A stretch of DNA of 34,009 bases, from positions 1-34,009 of the forward strand of contig JAAFIC010000029.1 of NCBI GenBank assembly GCA_013298565.1, given 5' to 3'. Every line of letters begins with the position of its first letter. The first letter of the stretch is position 1. Origin of the DNA: Alphaproteobacteria bacterium. Lineage in GTDB: Bacteria > Pseudomonadota > Alphaproteobacteria > Elsterales > Elsteraceae. The notes below the pieces were generated by a model. The model had not been told where the DNA came from and ran no database searches. It was given only the letters and a program-made list of their open reading frames with translations. This document shows, piece by piece, positions 16,692-24,467 of the stretch. The translations under genes and the position numbers were made by a program.

Positions 16692-17063
16692 ATGTCATTG
16701 ATTATCCCAAAAATTGCTACCTTAGCTATCACGATCCTTGAAATGCCCGCCTTCTCCGTCGATGCAGACGCGCTACTTAGCCCGAAAGAACTTGATGGTT
16801 TAAGAATTCAGTTAGCATTTTTCCCTAAAAGTGGCGATATTATTCCCGGAACGGGAGGCATTCGTAAATTAAGGATCGGTGTTGAAAAAAAGAATAAGGG
16901 GAAGCGCGGTGGTGCTCGTGTAATTTACTACTATCACGATGAAAACATTGCCCTTGCCTTGTTGGCAATCTACGCAAAAGGCGAAAAAATAGATCTGACA
17001 CCTCATGAGAAAAAAGAGCTGAAGAAACTGGTGGCGGATTATGGGGCACAGGCTATTCCCTAA
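16692..17063 (+). CDS. RelE/HigB-superfamily toxin of a type II toxin-antitoxin system
   Basis: Family members are ribosome-dependent mRNA nucleases. The core reads ITILEMPAFSVDADALLS, then DIIPGTGGIRKLRIG, GKRGGARVIYYYHDE and ALLAIYAKGEKIDLTPHEKK, which is the PGTGGxRKxR...GGxRVIYY...YAK pattern of the HigB/RelE branch. The conserved Arg and Lys residues and the terminal YAK stretch are intact, so it looks functional. ATG 16692 follows a GGGG at 9 nt and adds some 11 residues before the usual family start; no better start was found. The toxin-first order and the Xre antitoxin 37 nt downstream identify it as a HigBA-like module. Base composition is more AT-rich than the neighbours. Confidence 0.87.
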   Translation: MSLIIPKIATLAITILEMPAFSVDADALLSPKELDGLRIQLAFFPKSGDIIPGTGGIRKLRIGVEKKNKGKRGGARVIYYYHDENIALALLAIYAKGEKIDLTPHEKKELKKLVADYGAQAIP

Positions 17064-17100
17064 AAAAAGCTGTGAACGCTTTTTATCGAGGAGACAAAAA

Positions 17101-17394
17101 ATGACCGAGAGTAAGATTTTGAGCGGTATGCGACAAGCGGTTGCCTATGCTGAGGGGAGGGATATTCCCGTCCGTAAAACCATCATCAATGCGCCCCCTG
17201 CGGTGAATGTGCGGGATATTCGTGAGAAACTCGGCTTTACTCAAGAGGAGTTTGCACGCACCTTCGCTGTTTCGCCTTCTACGGTCCGCAACTGGGAACA
17301 GGAAACTCGCCGCCCTGACGGACCGGCTCGTGTTTTGCTCGCCGTCATAGCGAAGGAGCCTGAGGCTGTTATGAGAGCTTTGGCCGCTTTATAA
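17101..17394 (+). CDS. HigA-like Xre-family antitoxin
   Basis: A 97-residue protein ending in a Cro/C1-type helix-turn-helix: VRDIREKLGFTQEEFARTFA, then VSPSTVRNWEQETRRPDGPA (about residues 36-75). It would neutralise the preceding toxin and, through the HTH, repress the operon. The start is ATG 17101 because CGAGGAGA lies just upstream; a longer frame back to 17041 overlaps the toxin and lacks a ribosome site. It ends 9 nt before the convergent tgt stop. The pair sits between two housekeeping units, so it was probably acquired laterally, which fits its lower GC. Confidence 0.88.
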   Translation: MTESKILSGMRQAVAYAEGRDIPVRKTIINAPPAVNVRDIREKLGFTQEEFARTFAVSPSTVRNWEQETRRPDGPARVLLAVIAKEPEAVMRALAAL

Positions 17395-19598: not shown

Positions 19599-19659
19599 GT
19601 TAGGGGCGCTGCCCCTAACAACCCTGATTAAGGGGCTTGCCCCTTAATAATCCTTTTTT
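19599..19659 (+). repeat. Double hairpin repeat (GGGGC/GCCCC type) upstream of queA
   Basis: Two adjacent perfect stems: GTTAGGGGC with GCCCCTAAC (19599-19619), and ATTAAGGGG with CCCCTTAAT (19627-19648), the second followed by AATCC and six T. The second unit matches in inverted orientation a unit at 24374-24414 on the other side of the transposon. Read on the plus strand it resembles a terminator, but no rightward gene ends here. Confidence 0.65.
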
Positions 19660-19669
19660 CAGATCGCAG

Positions 19670-19677
19670 GTCTTACG
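19670..19677. repeat. Target-site duplication, left copy (GTCTTACG)
   Basis: GTCTTACG directly abuts the left inverted repeat and recurs, in the same orientation, directly after the right one at 24356-24363. Eight bases is the duplication size known for IS1595-family insertions. Confidence 0.9.
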
Positions 19678-19702
19678 CGGTATTATGGCGCAAACGCCAC
19701 CA
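19678..19702 (+). repeat. Left terminal inverted repeat of the transposon
   Basis: 25 bp beginning CGGT and containing ATTATGGCGCAAACGCCACC; 24 of 25 bases match the right end in inverted orientation. The repeat itself contains a small palindrome, TGGCG-CAAA-CGCCA, a possible transposase recognition feature. Confidence 0.93.
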
Positions 19703-19740
19703 ATCGGCAAAGCTGATGGAGGCGTGAAATGAACGCGCTT

Positions 19741-20664
19741 TTAGCCGTCTTTTATTTTTTCGTCCATGTCGGATTCATGCTCGCTCCATCCCCCGTCTCT
19801 CCAAACCAGATTAGCGTCGGCGGGAGCGGAAGGTGCATACTCGAATTCGTAAGCGGCAGACCAACGTTTTTTGAAAGCGCCTTGGTATATGATAACGCCG
19901 GAAACAAGGATCTTCCCCGTCTCTTTCAAACTAGATATATGTTCCGGCAAATCGAAGTAGCCCATGCAGGCGTTTTGCTTGAGTTCGGCTCCGGGGGATA
20001 TTGGCCGCATGAGTTCTTTGAGCGGACGAAAAGGCTCGACTCCGGGAACGTTAATTTCGCAAGTATGCCGGACAAAGACCCCTATTCCTTTGCCGTAGTT
20101 AGCGAGATCGAACTTAACATCAACGTGAGTACGGTCTTCTCGGGGGGTCAAGCGAGCGTTAACTGGCAGCAAAAAGGGGCGTTCAGCGCGAATCGTGTTG
20201 AGCACAGCTTCTTCAGCGGCTTTTGCAGAGCGTCGAGTCTCCCTGAAAGTCCATACGAGCAGCGCCGCACCTCCTACGCTGACCCAGAAAGCAGCAACAG
20301 ACCAATAGAATTGCTTCCTAGCGTACATAGCTTGGATCTCGGTCGCTACAGCGCTTCTGCAAGAGAAGAAGTTTGCTTCTCTTTCACTATCATACTTACC
20401 GTCGTACTGTACATGTCCGCCGCAATAGTGATGAGTAGCGCCATAAGTAAGCGCAACACCAGCCACATTGCTTTGGCTGGCGTGTTTTACCCCTCCGCTT
20501 GCTATTGCATGTGGCACACTATGGAGTGGGGAATCGAGGGGTGCCAAAGTTGGTTCTTCTTTAACTATCTCACGAGTTAACCCCACCCCAGCACTCCCCA
20601 GAATGCAGGCAGCGGTTATCCATCCGACAACCGCAAAACGTGACAATCTATGGCTGTAAGACAT
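19741..20664 (-). CDS. Two-pass membrane protein of unknown function (transposon passenger)
   Basis: A 307-residue protein. Residues 10-29 form a first membrane helix (FAVVGWITAACILGSAGVGL). A loop follows with C81 and C102 in HHYCGGHV and NFFSCRSAV, placed outside. A second helix is at about 119-140 (FYWSVAAFWVSVGGAALLVW). Next come a basic/Ala-rich helical hinge, RETRRSAKAAEEAVLNTIRA, and a roughly 145-residue domain with beta-strand character. This is the layout of a widespread group of uncharacterised membrane proteins. The frame overlaps the end of the DUF6471 gene by 49 bp and its start has no SD, so translation may be coupled. A rightward 283-aa frame across the same DNA lacks domain-like features and is rejected. 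Function unknown. Confidence 0.75.
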   Translation of the reverse strand: MSYSHRLSRFAVVGWITAACILGSAGVGLTREIVKEEPTLAPLDSPLHSVPHAIASGGVKHASQSNVAGVALTYGATHHYCGGHVQYDGKYDSEREANFFSCRSAVATEIQAMYARKQFYWSVAAFWVSVGGAALLVWTFRETRRSAKAAEEAVLNTIRAERPFLLPVNARLTPREDRTHVDVKFDLANYGKGIGVFVRHTCEINVPGVEPFRPLKELMRPISPGAELKQNACMGYFDLPEHISSLKETGKILVSGVIIYQGAFKKRWSAAYEFEYAPSAPADANLVWRDGGWSEHESDMDEKIKDG

Positions 20665-20843
20665 TGCAGTAAAAACGCCGCTGTGAATCCACCGCGACTG
20701 ATCTTATTAGCGATGTTGCGCTCTGTCTCTCGTATTCCGAGCGTTTCCAGTTTTTCCGCTAACTCTCGGTATCCGACATTGCGTCGCTTAAGCTCCGCTT
20801 TCAGCAGGGCTTTCGCTTTTTCCGACCATTCTGTATCGGCCAT
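20616..20843 (-). CDS. DUF6471-family small HTH-like protein (transposon passenger)
   Basis: 75 residues: SEKAKALLKAELKRRNVGYR, then ELAEKLETLGIRETERNIAN, then KISRGGFTAAFLLQCLTAI. This matches my recollection of the DUF6471 family, whose K-R-x-x-x-Y-x-E-L-A...N-K-I-S-R-G pattern resembles a Cro/Xre-type helix-turn-helix. AGAGGTG lies 6 nt before the ATG. A minus-strand promoter with TTGTCA and TATGAT at 17-bp spacing lies directly upstream, among CATATTCGAT-like repeats. I infer it is a repressor that controls itself and the divergent transposase, but DNA binding is not proven for the family. Confidence 0.82.
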   Translation of the reverse strand: MADTEWSEKAKALLKAELKRRNVGYRELAEKLETLGIRETERNIANKISRGGFTAAFLLQCLTAIDCHVLRLSDG

Positions 20844-20853
20844 AAAACACCTC

Positions 20854-20949
20854 TATATTCGATGATAACACCATCATATCCGATATAAACATCCTTGACA
20901 ATGAGTCTGCTTGTCACCATATTCGATGTAAGAATATCGAATATGGTGA
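20854..20949. promoter_or_regulatory. Divergent promoters with coinciding -35 boxes and four operator-like repeats
   Basis: Rightward promoter: TTGACA (20895-20900), 17 bp, CATATT (20918-20923), towards the transposase. Leftward promoter: TTGTCA (20901-20896), 17 bp, TATGAT (20878-20873), towards the DUF6471 gene. The two -35 boxes lie on the same bases of opposite strands. Four copies of a C/T-ATATTCGAT motif lie at 20854, 20875, 20918 and, inverted, 20936-20945. The last two form a perfect 14-bp inverted repeat (20914-20927 and 20936-20949) covering the rightward -10; the second covers the leftward -10. This is the layout of a mutually repressed divergent switch. Confidence 0.7.
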
Positions 20950-20990
20950 TGAACGTGTCGCAACACTTCCTCCTCTCTGCCGCCGCTCGC

Positions 20991-21932
20991 ATGATCAGCC
21001 TGAAGGCAATCTTCTCGCTGAGCGATGCCGACGCCTGGACGGTCTTTCAGCGCCTCCGCTGGCCAGAGACGGACGGGGCGGCTGTGTGCTCGCACTGTGG
21101 GCATGATCGCTGCTATGACGTGACGCGCGGCGCGACCCCGCGTTTTCGCTGCTCGGCCTGCCGGAAGGACTTCAGCCCGACGAGCGGCACCCTGTTCGCC
21201 TATCACAAGCTGTCGATCCGCGACTATCTGGCCGCGATTGCGCTGTTCGTGAACGCGGTGAAGGGCGTCAGCGCCTTGCAGATGGGCCGTGACCTCGACG
21301 TGTCCTATAAGGCGGCTTGGGTGCTCTGTCACAAGCTGCGTGAGGCGATGGCGTCGGAAATGAAGGGCGCGGTGATCGGCGGCGAGGGCAAGACGGTAGA
21401 AGTCGACGGCATGTACACCGGCGGGCATATCCGCCCGGCCAATCTCAAGGAAGATCGCGTTGATCGTCGCCTCGCCAAACATCAGACCGGCAAGCGTCAG
21501 GTTGTCGTCGCTATCCGTGAACGCGATGGCCGCACGGTAACGGCAGTATTCAAGTCGGAAGATGCTTCGACCGACTTCATCAAGGCGCGCGTCGCTCGTG
21601 GTACGACCGTTCACACCGATGAGGCGGCTTCCTGGGAATCGTTGCGGGCGAAGTTCCGCGTGCGGACGATCAACCACAGCCAAGCCTATAGCCACGACGA
21701 CGCTTGCACCAATCAGGCGGAAAGCTACTTCTCGCGTCTGCGCCGGGCTGAGCGCGGCCAGCATCACCAGATCAGCGGCAATTACCTGGGGCGCTATGCG
21801 GCGGAAATGGGCTGGCGGGAAGATAATCGCCGCCAGCCCAACGGAACGCTATTCACCCGGATCGTCGGCCTTGCCGTTCGGTGCCGGGTCTCGGTCGATT
21901 TCACGGGCCGCTGGCAACGCCAAGCTGCGTAA
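20991..21932 (+). CDS. IS1595-family (ISXO2-like) transposase
   Basis: DDE transposase that acts on the flanking inverted repeats. An N-terminal zinc ribbon is seen (CSHC, then CSAC, in VCSHCGHDRCYDV and FRCSACRKDFSPTSGTLF). The catalytic domain begins near KTVEVDGMYTGG (first Asp), continues with TVHTDEAASW (second Asp) and ends with the TNQAESYFSRLRRAERGQHH block (acidic/Asn residues of the third position). I use ATG 20991, giving 313 residues, because MISLKAIFSLSDADAWTVF aligns with family starts at the usual distance from the zinc ribbon. ATG 20943 or 20949, inside the operator palindrome, are alternatives. None has a clear SD. The frame is intact. Its last 84 bp overlap an antisense small ORF. 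Confidence 0.93.
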   Translation: MISLKAIFSLSDADAWTVFQRLRWPETDGAAVCSHCGHDRCYDVTRGATPRFRCSACRKDFSPTSGTLFAYHKLSIRDYLAAIALFVNAVKGVSALQMGRDLDVSYKAAWVLCHKLREAMASEMKGAVIGGEGKTVEVDGMYTGGHIRPANLKEDRVDRRLAKHQTGKRQVVVAIRERDGRTVTAVFKSEDASTDFIKARVARGTTVHTDEAASWESLRAKFRVRTINHSQAYSHDDACTNQAESYFSRLRRAERGQHHQISGNYLGRYAAEMGWREDNRRQPNGTLFTRIVGLAVRCRVSVDFTGRWQRQAA

Positions 21933-22025
21933 GGCTAGTTGAGCCGCGAAGGCGTCGAGCACGGCTTGCGGCGGGTTGGGTAGCTCGGTGATGATCGGCT
22001 TCGACCAGCGCGGTTTCTCCAGCAC
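21849..22025 (-). CDS. 58-aa hypothetical protein, antisense to the transposase 3' end
   Basis: Begins GTG 22025, three bases after the TGA of the 50-aa membrane gene, and ends TAG 21849. The protein starts MLEKPRWSKPIITELPNPPQ, continues AVLDAFAAQLALRSLALPAA and ends in a polar RDPAPNGKADDPGE tail. The start W-x-K-P-x-x-T-E-L-P with a following amphipathic helix looks like a real peptide rather than chance reading. Codon third positions outside the overlap are GC-rich, as expected of a coding frame here. Its last 84 bp lie within the transposase gene on the opposite strand. Only GTG is available as start and the SD is weak (GAG), so coupling to the upstream gene is likely. Function unknown. 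Confidence 0.5.
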   Translation of the reverse strand: MLEKPRWSKPIITELPNPPQAVLDAFAAQLALRSLALPAAREIDRDPAPNGKADDPGE

Positions 22026-22028
22026 CGG

Positions 22029-22181
22029 TCAATGCTCGGGCTTCGAGACAAGAATATGCGTTAGGGCAATCGGCCAGATCGCAAAGCCGTAGAGGAACCA
22101 GAGGAAGAAACTGCGGTTTTTGCTGTTGGCGACGATCCCGACAACCACAGCCATAACGATCCAGATAACCAAAAATTCCAT
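22029..22181 (-). CDS. 50-aa single- or two-pass membrane peptide (transposon passenger)
   Basis: MEFLVIWIVMAVVVGIVANS, then KNRSFFLWFLYGFAIWPIAL, ending THILVSKPEH. There are two hydrophobic helices separated by a K-N-R turn; the second carries RSFFLWFLYGFxxWPIALxH, a motif I recall from many small uncharacterised membrane proteins of bacteria and phages. ATG 22181 has CGGGAG 6 nt upstream, so the longer reading from 22283 is not needed. It is followed, after 3 nt, by the 58-aa ORF, and lies between transposase and right-hand passengers. Function unknown; small membrane peptides of this kind on mobile DNA can be exclusion, toxin or anchoring factors, but nothing here decides that. Confidence 0.65.
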   Translation of the reverse strand: MEFLVIWIVMAVVVGIVANSKNRSFFLWFLYGFAIWPIALTHILVSKPEH

Positions 22182-22256
22182 ATCATGCTCCCGTGCAGCA
22201 AGGCCCGAGGCACCGTCGCTGGTGCCGGGCGGTTGGTCGCATGCGAACACGGGTAA

Positions 22257-22463
22257 GCAAGCCCCACATGTTTCCGCTGCCAATGCCGGGTTCCGGTATC
22301 GGACAGTGAGGGTGTTGTATTCTGTGGGCCGCCCGACTTAGCGGGAACCCGTGTTCATCACGCGAATGCGTATCGCGTTCCGGCGACCAAGCCAGAAAAC
22401 GACTCGGAGATTATGGCAGCGGAGATTGCGGGGGTCTATGGGAATCGCTTGAAACCGGGTTAG
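22257..22463 (+). pseudogene. Possible decayed small ORF
   Basis: A 68-codon open frame without a usable start, reading protein-like near its end (RVHHANAYRVPATKPENDSE, then IMAAEIAGVYGNRLKPG, stop TAG 22461). In the same frame an ATG at 22185 runs 23 codons to a TAA at 22254, so a single gene interrupted by a nonsense codon is possible. No family is recognised. Confidence 0.25.
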
Positions 22464-22903
22464 CCCTTGTTTTCTATAGGCATATTTGGTATAGTTGGGA
22501 ACTAAAATAGGGGTAAGGCGTTGATACTGCTATGAGGTAATGTCAACGAGGAGGATTGAGGAGGCGCTGTTGATTTGCTAGGTAGGCAATTTTTGCTGGT
22601 GTTGCCGCTACGTCACGCCACTTAAATGCGATAGCATCTCTTCCCGTAAACACCCTTGCAACTGCAAGCCCCATATGATCTGAGTATCCCTGTTAATATG
22701 AAATCAAACTACTATGTGCATAGTGGCACGTAGTTTCGGTGTTTGGTTTGGTTGCAACGTCAGAAGGCTAAGATCATGCAGACTATGATGACATTCGCGC
22801 CGCGCCGTTGCGTTTGGCAGCAAAGTTATCGCTGTCCATTCGCCGTGACGCCAAATCACACCGCTAACGCGGTTTAATAAGACAATCACCACGGAGACCC
22901 ACC
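22464..22903. other. AT-rich non-coding stretch within the transposon
   Basis: No supportable gene. It contains a nested palindrome at 22706-22736 (outer arms AAACTAC and GTAGTTT, inner TATGTGCATA) and a small stem ACCGC/GCGGT at about 22859. A 69-codon leftward frame here has no ribosome site and no recognisable domain. The stretch may hold the promoter and leader of the 64-aa gene at 22904. Confidence 0.5.
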
Positions 22904-23098
22904 ATGCCCACAAAACGCGAGGAGCTAATAACGCTATTGCTCGATAGAGCAGACGGGAAGAGATTGGTTAACGTAAAATTCTTTCCGAGACTTGACGGAG
23001 AAACCCCCTCGGAAGAAGAGCTTTGCGCTGCTGCCATAGCGATGTTCCGTCCCCAGCGTGACGGGGATATCGTCGGCTTTCCTGTTATTGAGGCGTAA
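22904..23098 (+). CDS. 64-aa hypothetical protein (transposon passenger)
   Basis: MPTKREELITLLLDRADGKR, then LVNVKFFPRLDGETPSEEEL, ending CAAAIAMFRPQRDGDIVGFP. It is polar at first, with a helix that includes ELITLLLD and a C-terminal half that may be beta. GGAGA lies 7 nt before the ATG, giving a good start. A 13-bp stem-loop (23101-23140) and a T-rich terminator (23171-23199) follow directly. No family is recognised. Its small size and position with the next gene suggest it could be a partner or regulator of the KExxH protein. Confidence 0.55.
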   Translation: MPTKREELITLLLDRADGKRLVNVKFFPRLDGETPSEEELCAAAIAMFRPQRDGDIVGFPVIEA

Positions 23099-23100
23099 CA

Positions 23101-23140
23101 ATGCCCCGGCATCTTTTGTGACATAATGATGCCGGGGTAT
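23101..23140 (+). repeat. Stem-loop after the 64-aa gene
   Basis: Arms ATGCCCCGGCATC and GATGCCGGGGTAT pair over 13 bp with one G-U, enclosing 14 nt. It starts 2 nt after the stop codon. No T-run follows, so it may protect the 3' end rather than terminate. Confidence 0.55.
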
Positions 23141-23170
23141 CTAGCAAAAGCCGTATATATGTACTAATTT

Positions 23171-23199
23171 ACCCGCTAGATAGCGGGTTTTCTTTTTTT
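23171..23199 (+). terminator. Rho-independent terminator, directly before the KExxH gene
   Basis: ACCCGCTA and TAGCGGGT arms (effective loop TAGATA) followed by TTTCTTTTTTT. Only 13 nt separate its end from the GTG start of the next gene, so it either ends the 64-aa transcript or acts as an attenuator in the leader of the next gene. Confidence 0.8.
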
Positions 23200-23212
23200 A
23201 AGGGGTGTTGAG

Positions 23213-23833
23213 GTGCTCGGTTGGAGAAAAATCGTCAATGAATTTTCCGGCAAAACAAATATTCCTATCAAGCTAGAAGACGTTGAGTCCGAGATCATAA
23301 AAACTGGCGCAGTGGCTAGGTTTGATGTTTTGGGTATTGAAACGGCGCACGACACTTTATTAGGCGGGTACATGGAGTATGCCGCGACAGGTGTTTATGG
23401 CGAACCAACGGTAGGCTGTGTTAGGTATAAGAAGGATTTGCACCCTTATTGGCAAAAATTAGTTTGCTGCAAAGAGATGCTCCACGCCCTTGATAAACAG
23501 CAATCTTTTGATGGTCGTGGAACGACTCAGACAGCAGATCAAATCAGCGGCTTAATAGCGTATTTTAGCAATGGAGAACATGAAGAAAATGGCGCAGATA
23601 AACTCCATACAGTTTTAGATAGGTGCGCGATTATTCCAGCTATCGCGATTCTTTTCCCGATAACGATGGTGCATCAGTACCGGCATCATGTCGCCAATAG
23701 CAAGAAAGATATAAAGAATATAGCGGGAGAAGTGCATCTCCCAGAAGAAATCGTAAAGGTTGTTTTGGACCCTCGATGGAACCCGAATAGGCTATTGAAT
23801 GTTTGGATTGCCGCCGAGCAAGAAGAGGAATAG
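23213..23833 (+). CDS. 206-aa protein resembling a degenerate ImmA/IrrE-type domain (KExxH)
   Basis: Start GTG 23213 follows AAGGGG at 10 nt. Residues 78-95 read HPYWQKLVCCKEMLHALD: hydrophobics and a K-E-M-L-H at 87-91 sit where ImmA/IrrE metallopeptidases carry H-E-x-x-H, the first His being Lys. Later, ADKLHTVLDRCAIIPAIAIL and NIAGEVHLPEEIVKVVLDPR resemble the second half of that family (an A-x-x-F/L-L-x-P helix, then an A-x-x-x-x-V-P-x-x-x-V segment). A single metal ligand change would make it inactive as a protease, or it is a different, related fold. AT-richer than the chromosome. The similarity is by eye, so function remains unknown. Confidence 0.6.
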   Translation: MLGWRKIVNEFSGKTNIPIKLEDVESEIIKTGAVARFDVLGIETAHDTLLGGYMEYAATGVYGEPTVGCVRYKKDLHPYWQKLVCCKEMLHALDKQQSFDGRGTTQTADQISGLIAYFSNGEHEENGADKLHTVLDRCAIIPAIAILFPITMVHQYRHHVANSKKDIKNIAGEVHLPEEIVKVVLDPRWNPNRLLNVWIAAEQEEE

Positions 23834-23860
23834 CTTATTTTAAGTTAAGAGGAATCTATT

Positions 23861-24286
23861 CTACGTCATTCCGTCTTCAACAATCCGCCAGACGGTTTCC
23901 CCGCTTTCGCCCACGGTTTCCACCCAACCCTTCTGGCGAAGGAGCCTTGCAGCGCCTCGGATTCGCTCATCGAACTTCCGCCGCATCTTAGTGGTCTCGA
24001 AGGTGAGATGCCGCGCTTCGGCAATCTTGGCGGCGACGGCGCTTATCGGCATCGGCTCCCCCGCGTCGCGCAAAATGTCCATGATCTCGCGCCCGTAGGT
24101 ACGACCGAAAGGCGTGTCTCGTTGCAGAACGTGACGGCCTTGGATTTCATAACCGGATAGCTTGAGCACCCGATCAACCGCAACCAAATCAGACCGTATA
24201 TCGCCGATCCGGTCTCGCAGCCGTTCGATCTCTCGGTTAAGCTCTTCCCGCTTCGATAGCAGGTTCGATATGAGGATGTTCGTCAT
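23861..24286 (-). CDS. Coiled-coil plus winged-helix-like protein (transposon passenger)
   Basis: 141 residues. The N-terminal 45 (ISNLLSKREELNREIERLRD, then RIGDIRSDLVAVDRVLKLSG) form a strong coiled coil. The rest, FGRTYGREIMDILRDAGEPM, PISAVAAKIAEARHLTFETT, then RIRGAARLLRQKGWVETVG, has a helix-helix-helix-strand layout like a winged helix: a DILRDAGEPMPISAVAAKI helix pair and an L-x-x-x-G-W-V-E wing. It is probably DNA-binding and perhaps dimeric. No SD is evident before ATG 24286. It lies 45 bp inside the right transposon end and reads away from it, converging on the KExxH gene with a 27-bp gap. Family name not recognised. Confidence 0.65.
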   Translation of the reverse strand: MTNILISNLLSKREELNREIERLRDRIGDIRSDLVAVDRVLKLSGYEIQGRHVLQRDTPFGRTYGREIMDILRDAGEPMPISAVAAKIAEARHLTFETTKMRRKFDERIRGAARLLRQKGWVETVGESGETVWRIVEDGMT

Positions 24287-24330
24287 GCCGACGAGTGTAG
24301 GAAATCAGCCGCTTACCCGGTACAGTGACG

Positions 24331-24355
24331 TGGTGGCGTTTGCGCCATAATCCCG
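24331..24355 (-). repeat. Right terminal inverted repeat of the transposon
   Basis: On the minus strand the sequence begins CGGG and then ATTATGGCGCAAACGCCACC, matching the left end at 24 of 25 bases. The single difference is the fourth base (G here, T on the left). Confidence 0.93.
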
Positions 24356-24363
24356 GTCTTACG
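24356..24363. repeat. Target-site duplication, right copy (GTCTTACG)
   Basis: Identical to 19670-19677 and in direct orientation, immediately outside the right inverted repeat. Confidence 0.9.
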
Positions 24364-24373
24364 AACTGATGTG

Positions 24374-24414
24374 ATGAAAAGAAATAGGATTCTCAAGGGG
24401 CGATGCCCCTTGAG
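24374..24414 (-). terminator. Hairpin repeat acting as terminator for purF-SDR
   Basis: In leftward RNA CTCAAGGGGC and GCCCCTTGAG pair over 10 bp with a 3-nt loop and are followed by AATCCTATTTCTTTTC. It lies 54 nt after the SDR stop codon. Seventeen of 21 bases, from GCCCC onward, match the hairpin unit at 19640-19660 read on the opposite strand, so both belong to one repeat family. Confidence 0.65.
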
Positions 24415-24467
24415 TGGGGTGCACCTGCGCGTTTGACGCGCAAAGCGCATCGGAGGCCAAGCCCCTG

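Follow-up and report, generated by a model that had tools for sequence, protein, structure and literature searches.

A repressor that acts on operators between divergent genes, and so controls a transposase or a phage gene, is a known kind of circuit. In the lambdoid phages, several operators lie between divergent promoters, and those of phage 434 are 14 bp long with conserved outer 4 bp. In the Tn3 family, the transposase gene tnpA is divergent to the small regulator gene tnpR, and the regulator represses both from the intervening region. The controller (C) proteins of restriction-modification systems bind pseudo-dyad operators that often come in pairs and lie in front of the controlled genes, and regulate their own operon (PMC3758141, PMC4321490). 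Members of the IS1595 family have been described with a single transposase gene (PMC8101967). The stretch analysed here (the window: all 34,009 nt of contig JAAFIC010000029.1, assembly GCA_013298565.1, from an alphaproteobacterium of the Elsteraceae) carries a transposon of this family in which a gene of the DUF6471 protein family stands divergent to the transposase gene. The interval between the two genes is, with good confidence, the control region of the transposon, and DUF6471 an element-encoded, autoregulated repressor that limits the transposase via operators, a reading based throughout on sequence and a predicted fold.

Like the C proteins C.Esp1396I, C.BclI and C.Csp231I, DUF6471 appears to be a single-domain helix-turn-helix (HTH) regulator of about 75 residues, with a fold that is similar by prediction. 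No sequence match to them was found, however, and its target would be a transposase rather than restriction and methylation genes; the half-sites also differ (CATC/GATG against GACT/AGTC), and DUF6471 sites are 20–22 bp apart, centre to centre. The arrangement resembles the lambdoid switches (434, lambda, P22) in its predicted Cro/CI-type HTH protein, divergent promoters and several operators between them, and its sites share with 434 operators the 14 bp length and the conserved outer 4 bp. Unlike those switches, only one regulator gene is seen in the element, with no second, opposing repressor, the two promoters have one −35 box in common, and the 75 aa protein is too short to include an induction domain. 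The gene order is that of the Tn3 tnpA/tnpR region, a transposase gene divergent to a small regulator gene, but TnpR is a serine resolvase and that region is also a recombination site, whereas DUF6471 has no recombinase domain match. With the IS1595 family (ISXO2-like transposases) the element shares a zinc-ribbon and DDE transposase and an 8 bp target duplication (PMC8101967); unlike the described members, its lineage carries DUF6471, an operator region and passenger genes. No paper on DUF6471 was found in the literature searched, and what would be new here is the proposed function of the protein, its apparent use as control module of an IS1595-type lineage, and a putative residue-to-base code.

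The features of the control region and the two genes are:

20616–20843, minus strand: DUF6471 gene, 75 aa, predicted repressor, ATG at 20843 (PF20075, E 4.7e-32)
20853–20848, minus strand: Shine-Dalgarno-like GAGGTG of DUF6471
20849–20866, plus strand: predicted operator O1, ACCTCTATATTCGATGAT, 16.2 bits, 21 bp from O2
20870–20887, plus strand: predicted operator O2, ACCATCATATCCGATATA, 23.0 bits, over the DUF6471 −10 box
20901–20896 and 20878–20873, minus strand: DUF6471 promoter, TTGTCA, 17 bp spacer, TATGAT; sigma70-like, 10/12
20895–20900 and 20918–20923, plus strand: transposase promoter, TTGACA, 17 bp spacer, CATATT; sigma70-like, 10/12
20913–20930, plus strand: predicted operator O3, GTCACCATATTCGATGTA, 24.6 bits, over the transposase −10 box
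20933–20950, minus strand: predicted operator O4, ATCACCATATTCGATATT, 23.3 bits, inverted relative to O3
20914–20927 and 20936–20949: inverted repeat formed by O3 and O4, perfect 14 nt arms, 8 nt spacer
20945–20949, plus strand: Shine-Dalgarno-like GGTGA of the transposase
20955–21932, plus strand: IS1595-family transposase, 325 aa, zinc ribbon and DDE domain

The two promoters face away from each other and have the heptamer TTGACAA (20895–20901) in common, in which five of the six −35 positions coincide on opposite strands, just as the original prediction had described. A 3 kb scan, with 7 promoters found against 1.6 expected, ranked these two highest. The transposase transcription start point is a predicted one, and GTG 20955, chosen by comparison with relatives, is most likely its start codon. 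The four operator-like repeats that had been noted within 96 bp are likewise present, as CATATTCGAT-type 10-mers: TATATTCGAT at 20854–20863, CATATCCGAT at 20875–20884, CATATTCGAT at 20918–20927 (plus strand) and CATATTCGAT at 20936–20945 (minus strand). Each −10 box is overlapped by one of them, that of DUF6471 by the second and that of the transposase by the third.

The number of such 10-mers is ordinary for 34 kb. With up to one mismatch, four were found against 2.04 expected, and 13 of 100 shuffled sequences reached four, so the bare count was rejected as evidence. All four matches fall inside 92 bp, and the case therefore rests on their clustering and on comparison with relatives. The site unit is better read as a dyad of about 14 bp, CATC-N6-GATG, within an 18 bp site. 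A site model was built from 79 intergenic regions and compared with dinucleotide shuffles; it finds four sites in the intergenic region of the window against 0.39 in shuffles, none of 300 of which reached four. Across the 34 kb the four sites score 16–25 bits and nothing else exceeds 12.4 bits, the window copy being part of the training set. The predicted O1 is located between the predicted start point and the ribosome-binding site of DUF6471, and O4 reaches into the predicted leader and Shine-Dalgarno sequence of the transposase. No known RNA family in Rfam matched the window.

Relatives of DUF6471 were fetched, and 130 loci, including the window copy, were scored as divergent DUF6471-transposase pairs; the counts exclude some divergent pairs (e.g., L008, L010, L121 and L159) whose sites diverge too far to be recognised by the model. 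Most close relatives are divergent to an IS1595 transposase, with a gap mostly of about 90–120 bp. The intergenic regions of the 79 loci hold 3.2 operator matches each (0.23 in shuffles), typically in the order and orientation + + − or + + + −. With positions called by a spacing model, the distances are 21–22 bp for O1–O2, 43–44 bp for O2–O3 and 20–22 bp for O3–O4, close to whole helical turns, so that the sites would be roughly aligned along one side of the helix. Of the loci having all three main sites, 74 of 90 show coinciding −35 boxes with the same 1 nt offset, and 57 of 90 combine overlapping −35 boxes with scores of 9/12 or better for both promoters. O1 is the weakest of the four sites in the window and the least conserved across loci. 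Conservation of the repeats in DUF6471-carrying IS1595 relatives had been named beforehand as the check to make, and their number, place, orientation and spacing are kept; operators lie over both promoters and are conserved together with the regulator.

Operator bases also covary with DUF6471. Position 17 of the operator, next to the GATG core, tracks residue 45 of the protein, Arg going with C, Ala with T and Asn with A (30, 16 and 10 loci, respectively, for O4). Contacts of arginine with guanine and of asparagine with adenine are classic in protein-DNA recognition. Residue 45 ranks first for position 17 of both O2 and O4 among 57 DUF6471 and 236 transposase columns, with an association of 0.47, compared to 0.18–0.19 for the best transposase column. 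Seventeen phylogenetically independent pairs of loci, taken from the transposase tree, differ at residue 45; the expected bases were seen in 14 of these for O2 and in 12 for O4, and reversed bases in none. In pairs of similar distance that have the same residue, the O2 base was kept in 10 of 11. Loci fetched after the rule had been seen served as a hold-out set and obeyed it in 21/24 (O2), 25/32 (O3) and 24/28 (O4) cases. A further change, a TTAC half-site in O4, accompanies Val42 in five of six scorable loci, and with any other residue at 42 it was found in one Ala42 locus and no others.

Where an IS1595 transposase has no DUF6471 beside it, the site array is missing and at most scattered single matches occur; lone DUF6471 genes (L082, L086, L091/L110 and L115) keep a site just upstream. 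Together with the covariation at residue 45, this indicates that the operators go with DUF6471 and not with the transposase. More distant lone DUF6471 genes outside this class (L114, L117, L118, L120, L122, L123 and L124) carry no CATC-N6-GATG motif; they have in common another palindrome upstream, like TGTGACTTATAATTTACA, and DUF6471 may thus autoregulate throughout the family, using other specificities in the distant genes.

The family assignment of the protein is clear, its match to PF20075 scoring 110.1 bits against a curated Pfam cut-off of 26.8. The AlphaFold2 model is, at high confidence, a four-helix HTH protein (mean predicted local distance difference test score 93.7), in which the third, recognition helix comprises residues 41–50, inside ETERNIANKISRG. 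Its best structural neighbours are mainly restriction-modification controller proteins and XRE regulators, among them C.Esp1396I (Z 9.4, root-mean-square deviation 1.8 over 67 residues) and C.BclI (Z 9.3); DUF6471 is predicted to be an XRE/C-protein-like HTH protein. A Pfam scan gave no HTH_3-clan match, only DUF6471 itself and a sub-threshold match to Mu Gp27, and for this reason the protein is said to work like XRE/Cro-type regulators and is not filed as a member. A sequence search against solved structures returned nothing meaningful. There are no restriction or methylation genes beside DUF6471, its neighbours being the transposase and passengers without such matches.

The repressor role first suggested for DUF6471 thus gains support from the predicted HTH fold, the covariation at residues 45 and 42, and the sites going with its gene. 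The case that DUF6471 binds the sites is strong, and it is likely that binding represses both genes; the spacing of the sites suggests that neighbouring dimers bind cooperatively. In the proposed mechanism, DUF6471 would bind 14–18 bp CATC-N6-GATG sites in the shared promoter region, blocking its own −10 box from O2 (autorepression) and that of the transposase from O3, with O1 and O4 each another two helical turns outward, at the predicted starts of transcription and translation. Polymerase would be excluded from both promoters and both kept low. As one −35 box is common to them and they stand back to back, polymerase is probably not on both promoters at once. An element entering a cell without the repressor could plausibly give a brief burst of transposase, followed by self-limited repression; transposition and copy number would then be low, and further copies of the same specificity would be cross-repressed. 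A broader proposal, which is tentative and rather less likely to be right than wrong, is that DUF6471 is a family of transposon repressors with a recognition code (residue 45 Arg, Ala or Asn for C, T or A; Val at 42 for TTAC). Elements of the same code would cross-repress, and the code would sort transposons into compatibility groups, transposition occurring for the most part when an element enters a cell in which its group is absent.

Several points weigh against autoregulated repression by DUF6471. O3 fits the residue-45 rule in only 5 of the 17 independent pairs and is reversed in one; it fits less well than the other sites, being constrained as a −10 box. The rule was derived from the same data as the pair test, an objection that the hold-out loci answer in part. 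Part of the association is phylogenetic, with high scores for DUF6471 columns 6, 24 and 26 as well, and some sphingomonad-type copies have a degraded −35 box on the minus strand. Foldseek E-values for the model are weak (best 0.35), and a Z of about 9 for a small helical domain is suggestive at most. Binding at some sites might also activate instead of repress, as for C proteins. The main rival is a C-protein-like timer in which DUF6471 binds the sites but, instead of simply repressing both promoters, would activate one of them when scarce and repress when abundant, as activation at low dose is described for C proteins (PMC3115060, PMC3758141). It is improbable, given that both main sites lie over −10 boxes, where a bound protein should block polymerase, and that both promoters are already near consensus.

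Some transposases regulate their own genes, and a site does overlap the transposase promoter here, so the transposase itself might bind the sites and autoregulate, leaving DUF6471 a bystander or in another role. This was rejected and is very unlikely: position 17 is much less closely associated with any transposase column than with residue 45, transposase loci without DUF6471 have no array, lone DUF6471 genes keep a site, and the motif is not in the terminal repeats. About equally improbable as the main function is an RNA hairpin of O3 and O4 that hides the transposase start region in read-in transcripts, as in some insertion sequences. The 14 bp palindrome of the original prediction does stand in the window as the two perfect arms, and the second contains the likely Shine-Dalgarno sequence. 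Its perfection, however, is a trait of this copy: the identity within loci is 74% for O3–O4, hardly above the 72% for O2–O3 and 71% for O2–O4, although O2 cannot join such a hairpin, and the predicted native transcript begins inside the spacer, without the first arm. A hairpin is thus not needed as the main function and could be a secondary effect. Least probable of all is that the repeats amount to nothing more than AT-rich −10 boxes conserved as parts of the promoters, or are bound by a host protein; two of the sites do contain −10 boxes, but O1 and O4 carry the motif with no predicted −10 box, and bases outside the −10 boxes covary with DUF6471 residues across distant hosts.

The proposed repressor role provides an uncharacterized protein family with a function that can be tested, and shows how one IS1595-type transposon lineage probably limits its transposase. 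The loci offer about 100 natural, predicted repressor-operator pairs, with a single residue predictive of a single base, and, if confirmed, a simple system for the control of mobile-element copy number and the mutual silencing of related elements.

The remaining features of the transposon are:

19678–24355: whole transposon, 4678 bp, bounded by terminal inverted repeats and a target duplication; the site is unoccupied in a congener
19678–19702, plus strand: left terminal inverted repeat, CGGTATTATGGCGCAAACGCCACCA
24331–24355, minus strand: right terminal inverted repeat, CGGGATTATGGCGCAAACGCCACCA, 24/25 identical to the left
19670–19677 and 24356–24363: left and right copies of the 8 bp direct target site duplication, GTCTTACG
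19741–20664, minus strand: 307 aa passenger open reading frame (ORF) that follows DUF6471 and overlaps its 3′ end
23861–24286, minus strand: passenger ORF adjoining the right terminal repeat, 141 aa, like a gene at the same place in many such elements

The 25 bp terminal repeats follow the pattern CGG(T/G)ATTATGGCGCAAACGCCACCA. A congeneric genome has the empty site, with both flanks (about 75% identity) joined without the element, and the transposon is single copy in its own genome. The transposase belongs to the IS1595 family by its matches to PF12762 (E 3.4e-38), PF12760 (E 1.1e-8) and NF033547, and its residues D154, D225 and E259 are near-invariant among relatives. The terminal inverted repeats and 8 bp target duplication are those of the family; exact 8 bp duplications were found in 29 relatives, with ends of the same type. 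A lone transposase gene without passengers is usual in IS1595, though not obligatory, and this element departs from it: with 4678 bp, DUF6471 and at least three further ORFs, it is a transposon of the IS1595 family and not a simple insertion sequence.

The 307 aa passenger has no Pfam or NCBIfam match; it is a putative membrane protein with just two relatives among the loci, and the passenger at this position appears to vary from element to element. In about 46 of 94 loci, the terminal repeat on the transposase side adjoins a gene of some 142 codons whose start is coiled-coil-like (e.g., window 23861–24286, minus strand; L061:561–992; L025:791–1222). The gene has no Pfam match, and its product is possibly an accessory transposition or regulatory protein.

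Pieces of comM/yifB, which encodes a Mg-chelatase-like competence helicase, flank the element in 22 of 94 relative loci (L003, L019, L020, L021, L025, L033, L039, L043, L047, L053, L057, L061, L064, L069, L073, L075, L076, L083, L088, L093, L094 and L096), where GAAGCGCT-like and GAATTCCA target duplications recur. The comM gene looks like a favoured target of these elements. Tn6022 and Tsy favour comM via a TnsF selector (PMC10293859); no TnsF-type selector was identified in the DUF6471/IS1595 elements here.

Elsewhere in the window, a RelE-like ORF, scoring just below the Pfam cut-off, and the overlapping HTH ORF after it (16692–17394, plus strand) are likely a toxin-antitoxin pair. Short G+C-rich repeats flank the insertion on both sides (about 19600–19650 and 24393–24460), and match many places in the same genome and in congeners, as a REP-like repeat family.
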